41,026 bases of DNA from a virus: positions 1-41,026 of IMG/VR virus record IMGVR_UViG_3300030098_006389; one strand, given 5' to 3'. Positions 20,450 through 32,194 of this stretch are shown here, in pieces; positions within the stretch are counted from its first letter, which is position 1; every line of letters begins with the position of its first letter. The notes under the pieces are model-generated. The model did not search any database and had not been told where the DNA came from. It saw only the letters and a program-made list of their open reading frames with translations. The translations under genes were made by a program, and so were the position numbers.

Positions 20450-20791
20450 ATGCCATTCGCTTTCCCTGTTAAGAAAATATTTGAAATGAAAGACACCTCA
20501 TGTAAACTAGTCCTCGATTTAGGGTTCATGATATACACGGTTCAAACAGTAAAATTAAACCTAAACAAACCAACTGACTTAAAATCGCTTAAATCGCTCT
20601 TAAATAAAAACTTAATCCAAAAAAAACAAGTAATGTGTAGAATTGAGAAAAATCGCAATAAAAACGATTCTATACCCTTTATAGGTTATTTCTATGATGA
20701 GTTTGGTCGTCCAATTACAGTCCCCCAAAAAAAAAATCGTTTTGTTCCCAAAAAAGAAAACCCCGATATTTTTAAGAATTTAGCGATTTAA
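20450..20791 (+). CDS. Degenerate thermonuclease (SNase)-like protein, tentative
   Basis: A 113-residue protein. ATG 20450 (MPFAFPVKKIFEMKDTSCKL) has no ribosome site, but TATAAT ends 6 nt before it, suggesting a leaderless mRNA. The order 'KKIFEMKDTSCKLVLDLGF', 'YTVQTVKLNLNKPTDL' and 'NDSIPFIGYFYDEFG' follows the outline of small phage staphylococcal-nuclease-like proteins (VxVIDGDT...LGF...VRLxGIDTPE), but the catalytic Asp/Arg/Glu positions are replaced. If the relation is right it is an inactive OB-fold binder. The 3' end overlaps the convergent gene at 20772 by 20 nt. Confidence 0.45.
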   Translation: MPFAFPVKKIFEMKDTSCKLVLDLGFMIYTVQTVKLNLNKPTDLKSLKSLLNKNLIQKKQVMCRIEKNRNKNDSIPFIGYFYDEFGRPITVPQKKNRFVPKKENPDIFKNLAI

Positions 20792-21914
20792 AAATATTAG
20801 GCCATTCTATTTCGTGAAATTTGGCTTCTATCATTCTGTCTTTATTAAGAAAATAAGGACTGTCTTTTTCAATCCCAAATAGGTCTTTGTAATCGTTATT
20901 ACTTAACGAGTTAATCCAGCTTTTCAACGCTTTATCATACTCATCTGGAAATAACGCAATCTGTTTTTCAAGCAAATCTTGCTTTGCTTTATCTTTTCTT
21001 ATTCTTTGTTGTTCTATAATTTCAGTATCTTTTTTTACCCGAATTTCTGACTCATAATTCTCCATTTTCATTATCTTAACAAATAGACTTCGAGGTATAG
21101 TTATATTTTTTAAAATCCCATTTTCTATATCGTAACAAAAGTCTTCAAGACTATTAACAAACTCTTCAGGCGTGATAGAAGATCGGGCGTTATATATATT
21201 TAAGATTTCATTTTTTCTTACATTTTGAGAGTTTAATAAAATTGATGGATTAAGTTCTTGAAGATTTTTAAAAAAATTTTCAAACTCCATATTATTAGTA
21301 GTAGTTCTATTTTTAATATTATTAATATAACTTCTTCTACTAGGGTCTTTTGTGTGGGGTTTTGTGTGGGATTTTGTGGGAGGAACGTGTGAGGATTGTG
21401 TGAGGATGACCATTTTTTGGTACATATGCTCACTGATAATATATTGAGTTCCCCTGTTATCACCATTCTTATTAGGATTGCGTGAAATAAATTTGTCCTT
21501 AACCATTCTGCTAATGGTGTTCGGTACAGATTTTGAGTTTAAATTTAAGGCTTCTGCAATGTTATTATGCCTGAGTCTTGGCGTTATTCTATTGCCAGAA
21601 TTTACACAAATCTCAAAAATATATTGCATGATTTTCATGCTCATACGGCTAAGGTTATGCAAATCAGGAATATCATCATTTTTGTGTGAGGATTGTGTGA
21701 GGATTGTGTGGGGGTTTGTGGGAGGAACGTGTGAGGATTGTGTGGGGATTGTGGGAGGAACGTGTGAGGATTGTGTGAGGATTGTGTGAGGATTGTGTGA
21801 GGAATGTGTGAGGTCTGTTTCTATAAGGGTATCTAACGGATTTGTATTTTTTCTTTCTTTCTTTTTTTGTCCTTCTTTATACTTTATAGAAACACTATTT
21901 TTAAAAGCGTCCAT
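20772..21914 (-). CDS. Winged-helix replication/partition protein with embedded iterons
   Basis: A 380-residue protein directly after parA (2-nt gap). Residues ~25-75 are low-complexity repeats (HSSHNPHTILTQ, SSHVPPT) that exist because the DNA is a tandem ~11-bp repeat. Residues ~85-165 are a winged helix (MSMKIMQYIFEIC, NNIAEALNLNSKSVPNTISR, MVKDKFISRNPNKNGDNRGT). A short second repeat stretch (~170-190) and a charged helical C-terminus follow. The embedded repeats recall initiators such as lambda O, whose gene contains the origin; coupling to parA equally allows a ParB-like centromere binder. Either way it should bind its own gene. The choice is not settled by sequence. Confidence 0.6.
   Translation of the reverse strand: MDAFKNSVSIKYKEGQKKKERKNTNPLDTLIETDLTHSSHNPHTILTQSSHVPPTIPTQSSHVPPTNPHTILTQSSHKNDDIPDLHNLSRMSMKIMQYIFEICVNSGNRITPRLRHNNIAEALNLNSKSVPNTISRMVKDKFISRNPNKNGDNRGTQYIISEHMYQKMVILTQSSHVPPTKSHTKPHTKDPSRRSYINNIKNRTTTNNMEFENFFKNLQELNPSILLNSQNVRKNEILNIYNARSSITPEEFVNSLEDFCYDIENGILKNITIPRSLFVKIMKMENYESEIRVKKDTEIIEQQRIRKDKAKQDLLEKQIALFPDEYDKALKSWINSLSNNDYKDLFGIEKDSPYFLNKDRMIEAKFHEIEWPNIFKSLNS
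21349..21408. repeat. Iteron-like repeat cluster B (about 5 units)
   Basis: Units of 11-13 bp of type TTTGTGTGGGG, AACGTGTGAGG and ATTGTGTGAGG lie in the second low-complexity part of the 20772-21914 gene. They share the GTGTGAGG/GTGGGAGG core of cluster A. Confidence 0.7.
21682..21814. repeat. Iteron-like repeat cluster A (about 12 units of 11 bp)
   Basis: Tandem units ATTGTGTGAGG, with variants AACGTGTGAGG, ATTGTGTGGGG and ATTGTGGGAGG, run about 132 bp in near-perfect 11-bp phase, close to one helical turn. It is a candidate replication origin or partition centromere inside the gene of its likely binding protein. Confidence 0.8.
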
Positions 21915-21916
21915 TT

Positions 21917-22870
21917 TTACTTAGAGAGTAATTCTTTTGTTAAATCCACAATATCTTTAGCCCCACTTGATCGCTTATTTATCAAATAGATAGAATTTCT
22001 TTGTTCGGTCGCATCCCTAAACGTTGTGTTTTTTCTAACAATAGTTTTAGCTAAAATATCACTATAATATGAACTCATTGCACCTAAAGCTCGCAAGGAC
22101 GATCCATCACGGCTATCATACATATTTGGGATAATTGTAATATTTTTATTTGTGTTGAAATTATCATTAATAACCTCAACACTATCAAGCATTAATTTTA
22201 AACCATCAAAAGCTAGAAAATCAGTTGAGCATACAATGTTAATTAAATCAGACGCTACATAAGCATTCTTATTTAATTCGCTATCGGTTGGATTTGTATC
22301 AATAACAATCAGATCATAATTGTCTTTGATTTCGTTAATTTTTTTAAGTAATCGAACTTCTCTTTTTACCTGAGTAATTAAATGAGTATCAATTTTAACA
22401 TTCTTTAATGACGATGGAATAATATCTAATGTTTGAGATAGTTTTTTAATACAATTTTGAGTAGGCACATCGTTAATTATTGCGTCATAAATAGTTAAGA
22501 ACTCTTCATTTTCAGGGTTATCAAGCAACTGATTTGTAAGATGTGATTGTGCATCTAAATCAATCGCAAGCACCTTTAAGCCCATCATCGACGCAAGCAT
22601 ACAGTATTGGCTAGATAAGGTTGATTTACCAACACCCCCTTTGATATTGCTAAATACCTGTATTTTGTTTTTTATTACAAATTCATTCGATTTTTCAATT
22701 CGTTTTTGCCGAACAAAATTAATATAATCTATACCAAATAAATTTTTTTGTTTTTCTTCAAACCCATTATCACATTGCCATGTATACAAAGTAGGTTTGG
22801 TAAAACCAAAAAAAGTAACTAAATCTATCTTTTTTAACAGAACGTCTTTATAATGTCTTTTGTTTTCCAT
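21917..22870 (-). CDS. parA: ParA-family partition ATPase with N-terminal HTH
   Basis: A 317-residue protein. Residues ~10-35 form an HTH-like segment (LVTFFGFTKPTLYTWQ), ~77-84 is the deviant Walker A KGGVGKST, followed by 'LKVLAIDLDAQSHLTNQLL' and the Walker B 'YDLIVIDTNPT'. This is the Soj/ParA (type Ia) layout, in which ATP-driven nucleoid binding segregates plasmids and plasmid prophages. The gene lies between integrase and the winged-helix gene, all on the minus strand. The start has GGG 7 nt upstream (AAAGGGTTTATTT). Its presence implies that a low-copy extrachromosomal state may be maintained; alternatively it is a regulator only. Confidence 0.85.
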   Translation of the reverse strand: MENKRHYKDVLLKKIDLVTFFGFTKPTLYTWQCDNGFEEKQKNLFGIDYINFVRQKRIEKSNEFVIKNKIQVFSNIKGGVGKSTLSSQYCMLASMMGLKVLAIDLDAQSHLTNQLLDNPENEEFLTIYDAIINDVPTQNCIKKLSQTLDIIPSSLKNVKIDTHLITQVKREVRLLKKINEIKDNYDLIVIDTNPTDSELNKNAYVASDLINIVCSTDFLAFDGLKLMLDSVEVINDNFNTNKNITIIPNMYDSRDGSSLRALGAMSSYYSDILAKTIVRKNTTFRDATEQRNSIYLINKRSSGAKDIVDLTKELLSK

Positions 22871-29026: not shown

Positions 29027-29216
29027 TATTTTTGAGCAATGTAAAAAGCGACAACAAGAAGGGTTGGTGCAATATGGTGAGTTTGATCCTGAAAATGATA
29101 ATAGATGCATGTACACTGAAATGGAAGAAGAACTGCTCGATGTAATTAATTATGCTTATTTTGAGATTTTAAAAATTAGACAATTAAAAATTAACAAAAT
29201 TGCCATCGAAAAATAA
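29019..29216 (+). CDS. MazG-like nucleotide pyrophosphohydrolase, small
   Basis: A 65-residue protein. Start 29019 (MDDIFEQCKKRQQEGLVQYG) overlaps the resolvase stop by 8 nt; GGAAG lies 7 nt upstream. The pattern 'QYGEFDPENDNRCMYTEMEEELLDVINYAYF' holds the ExxEExxD helix of the MazG/dUTPase-like all-alpha NTP pyrophosphatases, in single-helix-pair form. It is shorter than most, so it may work as an oligomer or be a remnant. Its end overlaps the convergent MORN gene by 33 nt. Confidence 0.65.
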   Translation: MDDIFEQCKKRQQEGLVQYGEFDPENDNRCMYTEMEEELLDVINYAYFEILKIRQLKINKIAIEK

Positions 29217-29624
29217 CCCAATTTCTGTTTTTGTCACCACGCCATCTTTATTTGTAACAACATGTTCGCCTTGCCCTTCATGAGCAGAGTTTTTCCATTG
29301 CCCTTTATAAACGCTAATATCACCTTTTTCATTTTCTGTCGTTTTTTCGTGATGCCAAATTGTGCATTCTCCGTAACCGCTGGCAGAACCAAAATCCCAA
29401 TTTCCTTCATAAATCCAAGTTTTATCCACCCCTTTGACCTCTAATTTCCCTTGCCCATCGGCTCGGCATACAATTTTTTTTAAGTCAGAACAAAATCCTC
29501 TTTTGCACCTTCCAGTATATAAACCAGAGCCAAAATAATTTGGGTCTTCTTTGACTATATAATAAGTAGGTTTTATAGGTCTTTCAGGTATAACAGTAAT
29601 GGATTGAATTTTATTGTGTTGCAT
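29184..29624 (-). CDS. MORN-repeat protein
   Basis: A 146-residue protein with MORN-type repeats at ~72-94 (YEGNWDFGSASGYGECTIW) and ~106-122 (YKGQWKNSAHEGQGEHV), and weaker units before them (YTGRCKRGF). MORN repeats form extended beta sheets that bind membranes or proteins. No signal peptide or membrane span is seen, so it should act in the cytoplasm. It is transcribed away from the RiPP cassette, with a TATAAT (29640-29645 region, minus strand) 14 nt before its ATG and no ribosome site. It is the only minus-strand gene between 24671 and 32191, and looks like an accessory (moron) gene. Confidence 0.78.
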   Translation of the reverse strand: MQHNKIQSITVIPERPIKPTYYIVKEDPNYFGSGLYTGRCKRGFCSDLKKIVCRADGQGKLEVKGVDKTWIYEGNWDFGSASGYGECTIWHHEKTTENEKGDISVYKGQWKNSAHEGQGEHVVTNKDGVVTKTEIGLFFDGNFVNF

Positions 29625-29646
29625 TTTTTTAATAAACCATTATAAT
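29619..29646 (+). promoter_or_regulatory. Promoter of the peptide-modification cassette
   Basis: TTGCAT (29619-29624), 16-nt spacer, TATAAT (29641-29646). The AAAGGGAG ribosome site at 29687-29694 lies 8 nt before the precursor ATG. The TTATAAT stretch can be read in both directions and may also serve the MORN gene. Confidence 0.6.
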
Positions 29647-29702
29647 AAACTTTTATATAAATATCAATAAAATAAAAGAAAACAAAAAGGGAGATTTCAT
29701 AC

Positions 29703-29894
29703 ATGTCAATTCAAAACTTAGATTCAAATAAAGAAAACATGCTTTTGAAAAAAGTTTCAAATTTAGAAAATGTTATAAAAGAAGAAAAATCAAAAAAAGA
29801 TGATAATAAACCAAAAATAACAAAAGTCTCAAATTGGACAAATCATGGTTGGCGAAATGGATTTGATAACTTTGGTAATTATGGTGGAGGGTAA
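29703..29894 (+). CDS. RiPP precursor peptide with four aromatic-X-Asn motifs
   Basis: A 63-residue precursor. Residues 1-43 are a hydrophilic, probably helical leader (NMLLKKVSNLENVIKEEKSK). The C-terminal core is Gly/Asn/aromatic-rich: W45-T-N47, W50-R-N52, F54-D-N56 and F57-G-N59, then Y60 and three Gly. The W/F-X-N spacing is the substrate pattern of three-residue cyclophane-forming radical SAM enzymes (3-CyFE, triceptides), where the aromatic ring is joined to the beta-carbon of the third residue. The modifying enzyme is encoded next and overlaps by 14 nt. No protease or exporter is encoded nearby. Cross-links and the cleavage site are inferred. The precursor has its own promoter. Confidence 0.8.
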   Translation: MSIQNLDSNKENMLLKKVSNLENVIKEEKSKKDDNKPKITKVSNWTNHGWRNGFDNFGNYGGG

Positions 29895-31881
29895 TCTTAA
29901 TTTATTAATTATCCAACCAAGCTCGAAATGTAACCTAAATTGTACCTATTGCTATATACCAGAAAAAGATAGAAGAAATAGCCAAAAAATTGACATTAAA
30001 ACTGTTGATTTATTGCTTGAAAAAGTGCTAAATTCAAATATCGTAAAAGAAAAATTACAAATCCTTTTTCATTCTGGCGAACCTCTAACTGTGCCAATGC
30101 ATATGTATGACGAGATTTTTAAGTTAATTGATAAGCATAATCAAAAAAATATAAGAATTATAAAAACCGTACAAACAAATGGGACATTATTTACTGAGAA
30201 ATGGATAGATTTTTTTAAAAAAAACAAAATGACAGCAAGTCTATCCTTGGATGGCCCTGCTTTTTTGCATGATGCAAGTCGGCGTGGGTGGGATGGCTCT
30301 TCAACACATGAAAAAGTAATGGAAAAAGTGAAGCTTTTAAAAGATCATAATATTCCAGTATCACCCCTTGCTGTTGTAACTAAAACACACTTAGATTTTC
30401 CAGAAGAGTTCTTTTTTTTCTTTTTAAATAACAAACTATATAACTTTGCATTTAATGTTGAAGAAATGGAACTAAACAATGAGCAATCAAGCCTTAAAGG
30501 AAGCGAGTCTGTTTACATAAAATATAAGGCTTTTATAAAAACATTGCAAAAATTAAACAAAAAACATCCCCAAGTAAATATTCGAGAATTTCAGCAAACA
30601 AGGAGTAATGTCCATTCGTTTTTAGAAAATAAAAACTTTGTTGCCTCGCAAGATGTCGCTAATCCATTAAATATATTAACGTGTACAACGAATGGTGATT
30701 TATATACATTTTGTCCTGAAATGGCAGGTCAACAAGAAATGTCAGTTGGTAATATTTACAAAATAAAAGAGATTAAAGATTTATTAAAAAACAAAAATTT
30801 TATTAAATTAAAAAATCAAATCAATAAAGGCATTAGCGAATGTAAAAATAAATGCGACTATTTTTCTTTTTGTGGTGGAGGTCGGCCTGCCAATAAATTT
30901 TATGAAACAGGTTCTTTTGCTTCCACTGAAACAGTAGCCTGCAATTTACAAATAAAAAAATTAATTGATTGTTATTTAGAATCGTTTGATGAACCTTTGG
31001 ATAACATGCCTTTATTATCTGGCACTAAAGTGTTTTTAGAAAGCAAGGCTTTAATTGAAAAAAACACAGGGGCTTATTATTTAAAAGATAATCAGAATTT
31101 TTTGCATTATTCAGTAAATTCAGTGCTTCCAAATACAGACTGGGTTGAATGTTGTGAAAAAGATAAAGATATTTTGTTACTAAAAAATAAAGACGATTTT
31201 AAACAACAAAAAGACATTCTAATTTTTGATGTTTCCCCTAGCATGAAAGAGGGAATTTTAAGTTTTGAATTTAATAAAGCTAATAACGCTGATGATATTT
31301 TAGCTATTCAAAAAACAAGCCAATGGAACTTGTTTTTAGAAAACGAATTAATACCATTCTTTTTAAAATTTACGCAAGATAATAAAGATATTGCTCTTAG
31401 TGAAATTGCGTTTAGTCAGCCAGGCTTAGAAACCGTTTCGTTTGATAAATATAAAAAACGTTTTGTTGGACTGCATATTGATGATAGAGATGCTTTTGGA
31501 AGAAATGGTGTTTCTTATTGTGAAAGAGATAAAACGAGACCTAGAATTTCTATTAACTTAGGCCCAGACCCACGTTATTTTTTATTTTGTAATTTGAACG
31601 TTGATGATTGCGTCAAATACAATATGATTAATGAAAATGAATTGATAGAAATTAAACGATGTTTAGGATTTTTTCCTAAAAAGTTTTTTGAAAAGTTTCC
31701 GAATTATTCAGTTAAAAGAATTAAGCTAGATGTAGGACAAGGTTATTTAGCCCCCACTGACAACATTATTCATGACGGTTCAAGTTCAGGAACTGATAAA
31801 TTTGATCTTTCGATTGTAAGTTTAGGTGATTTTTTTCCAATTAAAGAAAATTCTTCTATTCCTAAGTTTGCTTTTGCTTAA
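29881..31881 (+). CDS. Radical SAM/SPASM cyclophane synthase fused to a 2OG-oxygenase-like domain
   Basis: A 666-residue enzyme. Start 29881 (MVEGNLNLLIIQPSSKCNLN) lies inside the last codons of the precursor; upstream in-frame ATGs exist but would lengthen the overlap. Residues 17-24 carry the radical SAM CxxxCxxC (CNLNCTYC), ~64-69 is HSGEPL, and a SPASM region holds Cys268, 278, 321, 325, 331 and 354 (CTTNGDLYTFC; CKNKCDYFSFCGGGRPANKF; STETVAC), the signature of GrrM/Xye-type maturases. From ~385 a second domain begins; it has HIDDRD (His532, Asp534), 'RPRISINLGPDPRYFLF', and HDGSS (His631), the HxD...H facial-triad pattern of Fe(II)/2-oxoglutarate hydroxylases. Predicted: cross-link, then perhaps hydroxylate, the precursor. 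The second activity is inference. Confidence 0.82.
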   Translation: MVEGNLNLLIIQPSSKCNLNCTYCYIPEKDRRNSQKIDIKTVDLLLEKVLNSNIVKEKLQILFHSGEPLTVPMHMYDEIFKLIDKHNQKNIRIIKTVQTNGTLFTEKWIDFFKKNKMTASLSLDGPAFLHDASRRGWDGSSTHEKVMEKVKLLKDHNIPVSPLAVVTKTHLDFPEEFFFFFLNNKLYNFAFNVEEMELNNEQSSLKGSESVYIKYKAFIKTLQKLNKKHPQVNIREFQQTRSNVHSFLENKNFVASQDVANPLNILTCTTNGDLYTFCPEMAGQQEMSVGNIYKIKEIKDLLKNKNFIKLKNQINKGISECKNKCDYFSFCGGGRPANKFYETGSFASTETVACNLQIKKLIDCYLESFDEPLDNMPLLSGTKVFLESKALIEKNTGAYYLKDNQNFLHYSVNSVLPNTDWVECCEKDKDILLLKNKDDFKQQKDILIFDVSPSMKEGILSFEFNKANNADDILAIQKTSQWNLFLENELIPFFLKFTQDNKDIALSEIAFSQPGLETVSFDKYKKRFVGLHIDDRDAFGRNGVSYCERDKTRPRISINLGPDPRYFLFCNLNVDDCVKYNMINENELIEIKRCLGFFPKKFFEKFPNYSVKRIKLDVGQGYLAPTDNIIHDGSSSGTDKFDLSIVSLGDFFPIKENSSIPKFAFA

Positions 31882-31885
31882 ATTG

Positions 31886-31894
31886 TGGTAAAAT
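31886..31894 (+). promoter_or_regulatory. Extended -10 element for the 31901 gene
   Basis: TGGTAAAAT (TGn plus -10) ends 6 nt before ATG 31901, and there is no ribosome site, so a leaderless transcript is likely. The -35 (TTTGCT at 31867-31872) is weak, as expected with an extended -10. Confidence 0.5.
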
Positions 31895-31900
31895 AAAAAC

Positions 31901-32194
31901 ATGAGCCTCAAAGTTATCCCAGTTGAGATAAAAAAACCTATTCAAGTAACAAAAAAAGAACCTGAAAAAGTAGAAAAAACATTATCAGAAGAAGAAGTTT
32001 TTGTATCCGAAATTGCCAAATCTGAAAAGGGTGACGAGCTTTTAGAAAACTTAAGGCATTACATTGCAATTGAAATGGTTGATGTAAAGGAACTTATTGA
32101 GGCAAACGAAAAAAGAAACGAAAAAGTCATGGATTACAATGATCCCGATGATGTTGTAAAAGAAAATGACGAGAACAAAAGATTGAAAATTTAG
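31901..32194 (+). CDS. Hypothetical charged protein after the RiPP enzyme
   Basis: A 97-residue, very charged, acidic protein (MSLKVIPVEIKKPIQVTKKE) with a long helical middle (LLENLRHYIAIEMVDVKELIEANEK) and a disordered end. It begins 19 nt after the enzyme stop but seems to have its own promoter. It could be part of the cassette (immunity, partner) or an unrelated early protein; sequence does not tell. Its stop overlaps that of the endolysin by 4 nt, tail to tail. Confidence 0.55.
   Translation: MSLKVIPVEIKKPIQVTKKEPEKVEKTLSEEEVFVSEIAKSEKGDELLENLRHYIAIEMVDVKELIEANEKRNEKVMDYNDPDDVVKENDENKRLKI

Follow-up and report, generated by a model that had tools for sequence, protein, structure and literature searches.

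What does a temperate phage gain from a pair of overlapping genes that resemble a bacterial pathway for ringed peptides, and which product would these genes make? The pair was found in the window, a stretch of 41,026 bases equal to positions 1 to 41,026 of the IMG/VR virus record IMGVR_UViG_3300030098_006389. From sequence comparison we hold it to be quite probable that the two genes form a phage-borne triceptide-type RiPP cassette, in which a GrrM/OscB-type cyclophane synthase fused to a MicC-type oxygenase acts on a 63-aa precursor; this confidence refers to the chemistry and not to the role of the product. A literature search on phage triceptides returned nothing, and we know of no phage-borne cyclophane example.

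The phage genome and the cassette site

An exact 87-bp direct repeat is present at both ends; the window is therefore, very probably, a phage genome that is complete and closed into a circle. Terminase, portal, head and tail proteins are encoded along with four further proteins: a tyrosine integrase, an exonuclease, a DnaD-like loader and a RuvC-like resolvase. The cassette has the gene of this resolvase on one side and the convergent genes for lysis and tail on the other (Table 1). The sequence-only reading of this DNA had described a temperate phage with the cassette between DNA-metabolism and lysis genes, a description that agrees with the integrase and with the gene order. Relatives of the terminase, portal and head-closure proteins were found, loosely, in Pseudomonadota phages (Vibrio, Rhodoferax, Alcaligenes, Pelagibacter, Caulobacter and Megaira), with some Arthrobacter and cyanophage matches; none of the matches to these three proteins was close enough for a host call, and the integrase had no match at all.

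Near the integrase, a ParA-type ATPase (AAA_31, E 1e-34) adjoins a weak helix-turn-helix protein (21917-22870 and 20772-21914, both on the minus strand), so this may be a phage-plasmid, existing as a plasmid for some or all of the time. Pointing away from the cassette, on the minus strand at 29184-29624, lies an ORF of 146 aa in which MORN-like repeats were recognized by eye; it is preceded by a strong promoter-like site (11/12). Since its homologue was found in the sister phage only (see below), this ORF is probably part of the same accessory region.

Table 1. Positions of the cassette features in the window
Feature	Position	Strand	Basis and remarks
Possible -10 box TATAAT (perfect), with a poor -35 TTGCAT at 29619	29641..29646	+	Sequence; scan not above chance
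Ribosome binding site GGGAG	29689..29693	+	Sequence; 9 nt upstream of precursor ATG; good site
Precursor peptide, 63 aa	29703..29894	+	Translation; sister-phage homologue 96.8% identical, all four motifs intact
Likely leader recognition helix MLLKKVSNLENVI	29739..29777	+	Precursor alignment; putative role
Four ring motifs W45-T-N47, W50-R-N52, F54-D-N56, F57-G-N59	29835..29879	+	Sequence, shuffle test
Fused enzyme	ORF listed 29845-31881, likely 29881..31881	+	678 aa as listed; start by homologues and model
Radical SAM/SPASM cyclophane synthase domain, GrrM/OscB family (residues 23-382)	29911..30990	+	TIGR04261, 330.1 bits; fold matches
CxxxCxxC radical SAM cluster motif (C29, C33, C36)	29929..29952	+	Sequence
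SPASM cysteines C333, C337, C343, C366 and CGGGxPxNKFxExG signature	30841..30942	+	Sequence; aligned in 7/7 homologues
AlphaKG/Fe(II) oxygenase domain, MicC type (residues 390-656)	31012..31812	+	PDB 9vkm, E 9.4e-18; family profile, E 3.7e-71
Predicted iron triad H544-x-D546 ... H643 (NIIHDG)	31474..31773	+	H544 and D546 invariant in 8 homologues
97-aa ORF, possible third gene	31901..32194	+	19 nt 3' of enzyme, at edge of conserved block; no Pfam match

The precursor and the two-domain enzyme

The precursor consists of a leader (approximately residues 1-43) and a core (residues 44-63), the final 20 residues, NWTNHGWRNGFDNFGNYGGG. In the core, Asn stands two positions after each of the four W/F residues; four such motifs arose in 0.08% of shuffles of the core composition and in 0.05% of shuffles of the whole peptide. 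Thus, the translation and the shuffle test uphold what had been read from the letters, a 63-residue peptide that ends with W-T-N, W-R-N, F-D-N and F-G-N and overlaps the enzyme gene; an aromatic-X-Asn core next to the enzyme gene, with the genes overlapping, is the arrangement of a triceptide precursor. A check of the precursor against other phage genomes had also been proposed, and the sister-phage homologue conserves the aromatic-X-Asn pattern throughout.

The leader can be aligned, weakly and in register, with precursors of Nostoc, Leptolyngbya, Variovorax, Streptomyces and another cyanobacterium, and its helix has a hydrophobic/basic pattern similar to that in the other precursors; all seven aligned sequences share Leu21 and the first Trp of the core. 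The precursor matched none of the RiPP family models. As the GrrA/OscA precursor model TIGR04260 gave no match at E 0.1, and the bacterial precursors tested were likewise below its cut-off, we did not assign the phage precursor to GrrA/OscA.

The listed start of the enzyme ORF is less likely to be used than the ATG at 29881, because homologues begin near the latter and residues 1-15 were modelled at very low confidence; the later start makes the overlap with the precursor 14 nt. The span that the sequence-only reading had given to the cassette, 29619-31894, does contain peptide and enzyme, though its start lies upstream of the peptide. The claim that the cassette has its own promoter was weak and could not be substantiated: promoter-like sites were no more numerous than in shuffled sequences, and the strong site in the gap upstream was called on the minus strand.

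The first half of the enzyme scored above the curated NCBIfam cut-off of the GrrM/OscB model TIGR04261 (310 bits) by a margin of only 20 bits, the next-best family reaching 229, and the AmcB, XyeB, FxsB and sulfatase maturase models all remained far under their own cut-offs. This score and the cysteines support the Grr-type cyclophane maturase with CxxxCxxC and SPASM regions that had been noticed at the outset. The XyeB and FxsB families, named then as further families for comparison, are excluded by their scores (86 versus 450 bits and 99 versus 370 bits), and a viperin reading was dropped as a generic radical SAM superfamily match. The AlphaFold2 model, built from 12 sequences, is of moderate quality (mean pLDDT 71) with a low-confidence stretch (382-423) between two folded parts; for this reason we relied on it for the domain layout and for the fold of the radical SAM half, and drew nothing from it on the active site of the oxygenase. 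Its radical SAM half has fold matches to the anSME and ChlB radical SAM structures.

OscB is known to join C7 of Trp to Cbeta of Asn or Asp and C4 of Phe to Cbeta of Asn (PMC11002830); the published motifs are exactly those of the phage precursor (Trp/Phe to Asn at +2). GrrM/OscB maturases (TIGR04261, IPR026357) with their GrrA/OscA precursors are like the phage system in the domain, in the W/F-X-N core and in the position of the precursor directly upstream. However, the known members are bacterial and, as far as seen, stand-alone, whereas the phage enzyme is fused to an oxygenase and its precursor matches no model.

The sequence-only reading had assumed a single maturase, which holds for the radical SAM half; the last ∼290 residues are a second enzyme that had been missed. 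Pfam and NCBIfam yielded no model for this domain. It is homologous over nearly its whole length to MicC, a non-heme iron oxygenase that depends on alphaKG and whose structure has been solved (PDB 9vkm), and the homology across the domain together with the H-x-D...H triad places it in the MicC type. In the alignment, the residues likely to bind the iron are H544-x-D546 and H643; the invariance of NIIHDG is partly due to selection, since six of the eight aligned oxygenase sequences were retrieved with this pattern, which includes the last His. A literature search found nothing on the reaction of MicC; the oxygenase half is a probable hydroxylase. MicC was solved as a single protein, whereas its phage counterpart is fused to a cyclophane synthase.

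Relatives in viruses and bacteria

Two exhaustive scans with GrrM signatures and one scan with an oxygenase signature, made over 2.9 million viral contigs, each led to one contig, a sister phage of 41,781 bases. A looser viral profile scan gave, among the matches listed, only two further near-identical contigs, with a close stand-alone GrrM and bacterial-looking genes. These two contigs (L064 and L065) were rejected as a second phage lineage: they have no oxygenase, a motif peptide was not seen in the vicinity of the enzyme, one terminase family was unmatched, and the neighbours look bacterial. In both, which are filed as viral but look like a bacterial locus, a stand-alone GrrM-like enzyme (33% identical) is located beside a 1232-aa NTPase-like protein and a phosphoesterase-like protein. 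As far as we searched, such peptide chemistry, known from bacteria, is otherwise almost absent from viruses.

The sister phage is ∼93% identical in the backbone (roughly 88-97% over most aligned regions) and ∼99% identical (98.8-100%) in the bins from ∼29,500 to 32,000 that cover the cassette. This difference indicates that the cassette moves or recombines as a unit, having been exchanged or acquired in that form. Two more distant relatives spanning the same junction are without the cassette; near-identity in the sister phage and absence from these two are signs of an accessory (moron) cassette. The 97-aa ORF is 100% identical in the sister phage and was not found at the other loci searched, which makes it a candidate immunity or regulatory gene.

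Among bacteria, a single-protein search of 84,980 genomes found no close relative. A pattern scan of 84,980 genomes produced seven oxygenase loci, and profile searches in ∼1,085 genomes of three phyla detected the oxygenase in 3 of 395 Bacteroidota, 6 of 292 Cyanobacteria and 1 of 398 Pseudomonadota (seed genomes counted). A cyclophane-type or related radical SAM gene was situated within ∼6 kb of the oxygenase at 11 of 13 loci, always as a separate gene (0 fused); linked loci include those of Nostoc, Leptolyngbya, Flavobacteriales, Sphingobacteriales, Caulobacter, Streptomyces and Variovorax. Five of them have W-x-N-type precursors (Nostoc, Leptolyngbya, Variovorax, Streptomyces and one further cyanobacterium). 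Given this linkage and these precursors, the MicC-type oxygenase regularly accompanies cyclophane maturases. Of five stand-alone radical SAM neighbours that were scored, four pass the GrrM cut-off; the fifth is closest to FxsB/YhhB. Fusion of a radical SAM domain to a MicC-type oxygenase was seen, among the loci examined, in the phages only.

The cluster on a plasmid of Nostoc sp. TCL26-01 matches the phage cassette in its three parts and their order, with a precursor (core WDN, WND, WGN) followed by grrM and the oxygenase, and also resides on a mobile element. Here, however, the parts are three separate genes, and the enzymes are ∼33-35% identical to those of the phage in the aligned stretches.

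Other arrangements were observed as well. Two Bacteroidota loci (L051 and L050) have two or three tandem MicC-type oxygenase genes close to a radical SAM gene, a hint that a single peptide is oxidised there in several different ways. In Variovorax and a cyanobacterium (L059 and L056) the MicC-type oxygenase seems, by eye, to run into a second 2OG-Fe(II) oxygenase-like domain, in what appears to be a different fusion of the same oxygenase family. In the Streptomyces cluster (L012:2906-4339), the maturase and the oxygenase are separated by an FGE/sulfatase-modifying-factor protein and a GNAT acetyltransferase.

A fused radical SAM/alphaKG enzyme acting as cyclophane synthase and hydroxylase has already been published, namely ChlB (Morishita 2024, Nat Chem; Ruel 2025; both as cited in PMC12636437). 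ChlB shares with the phage enzyme the layout of a cyclophane radical SAM domain and an alphaKG iron oxygenase on one polypeptide, with a match in radical SAM fold. Its oxygenase is of the HExxH kind and unrelated, whereas the phage oxygenase is MicC-related and the phage radical SAM clade is GrrM. The HExxH motif is absent from the whole phage protein; therefore, we regard the phage enzyme as an analogue of ChlB rather than a member of its group, and the two fusions appear to have arisen separately.

Proposed chemistry and role of the peptide

In the proposed mechanism, the two-domain enzyme would bind the leader of the precursor, and its radical SAM/SPASM domain would, by means of SAM-derived radicals, link an aromatic carbon of Trp or Phe to Cbeta of the Asn at +2, giving up to four three-residue cyclophanes. 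The fused MicC-type oxygenase would then most likely hydroxylate the ringed core, probably at beta positions. This order and type of reaction are suggested by the ChlB fusion, in which a cyclophane must already be in place before Asp and His are hydroxylated (PMC12636437). A loss of 2 Da per ring, as predicted by the sequence-only reading, is still expected; with the MicC-type oxygenase domain found, the simple total of -8 Da is probably wrong, because ring formation is probably followed by hydroxylation (+16 Da each).

Several readings would do away with all or part of this chemistry. That the window is bacterial DNA or a misassembly, with no phage behind it, would fit the occurrence of the cassette in just two IMG/VR records; the terminal repeat of a closed genome, the presence of portal, terminase, head, tail and integrase genes, and the same organization in a second, separately assembled phage make such an origin hardly credible. 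Scarcely better placed is an anaerobic sulfatase-type maturase, or some other radical SAM activity, beside a small ORF that is a chance frame. The sequence and fold similarity to anSME is as expected across the SPASM superfamily, and the sulfatase maturase model gave 152 bits against a cut-off of 349, where the GrrM model exceeded its own; the enzyme therefore stays out of a clade whose membership, by the sequence-only reading itself, would have spoken against it. The small ORF has a ribosome site, a translational overlap, conserved motifs and bacterial counterparts, none of which suits a chance frame. A working radical SAM domain joined to an oxygenase that has degenerated or catalyses another reaction, such as desaturation or backbone cleavage, deserves more weight, though we think it unlikely. 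The domain is divergent (21-28% identity to its relatives), and alphaKG enzymes of RiPP pathways do more than hydroxylation (PMC12636437); against this, the H-x-D...H triad and other invariant family residues are retained, and between the two phages just one of the 294 codons of this half has a non-synonymous difference.

The role of the product is a separate matter. No transporter or protease gene is present beside the cassette; hence, either host-assisted release or an intracellular effect is possible. Phage-borne production of a RiPP bacteriocin has a precedent in sublancin of prophage SPbeta, which, as here, is a modified-peptide pathway carried by a phage for the lysogen, but with glycocin chemistry and its own transporter. 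Lysogenic conversion, in which the modified peptide of the lysogen would act on competing bacteria with the help of host proteases and export, is the likeliest single role, although we put it at somewhat less than an even chance. The same chemistry could instead serve the phage inside the cell, in superinfection exclusion, anti-defence or control of the lysogeny decision, which we consider a weaker candidate. The cassette lacks export and protease genes, it lies where the early region meets the late one, a common location for accessory genes, and its 97-aa neighbour could be an immunity gene or a regulator, all in keeping with an intracellular product. However, the Nostoc plasmid relative is also without an adjacent transporter in the stretch examined, so the missing phage transporter says little, and homology to known defence families does not go beyond the generic (viperin-like) radical SAM match. 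More speculatively, and with rather low probability, the phage may have recruited a single-polypeptide triceptide system whose peptide acts inside the cell or, as a lysogeny-linked weapon, against rival phages and neighbours, with the 97-aa ORF providing immunity. Among peptides known to us, the product would then be the first hydroxylated one with several cyclophanes to be encoded by a phage.

With the preferred reading, that of a triceptide-type cassette, triceptides, a peptide class relevant to antibiotics, would join the cargo of phages, in the form of a minimal two-gene system for ringed, oxidised peptides. The enzyme would be a second kind of fusion between a cyclophane synthase and an alphaKG oxygenase; as its oxygenase family differs from that of the published one, this suggests that coupling both steps on one protein has been repeatedly favoured.
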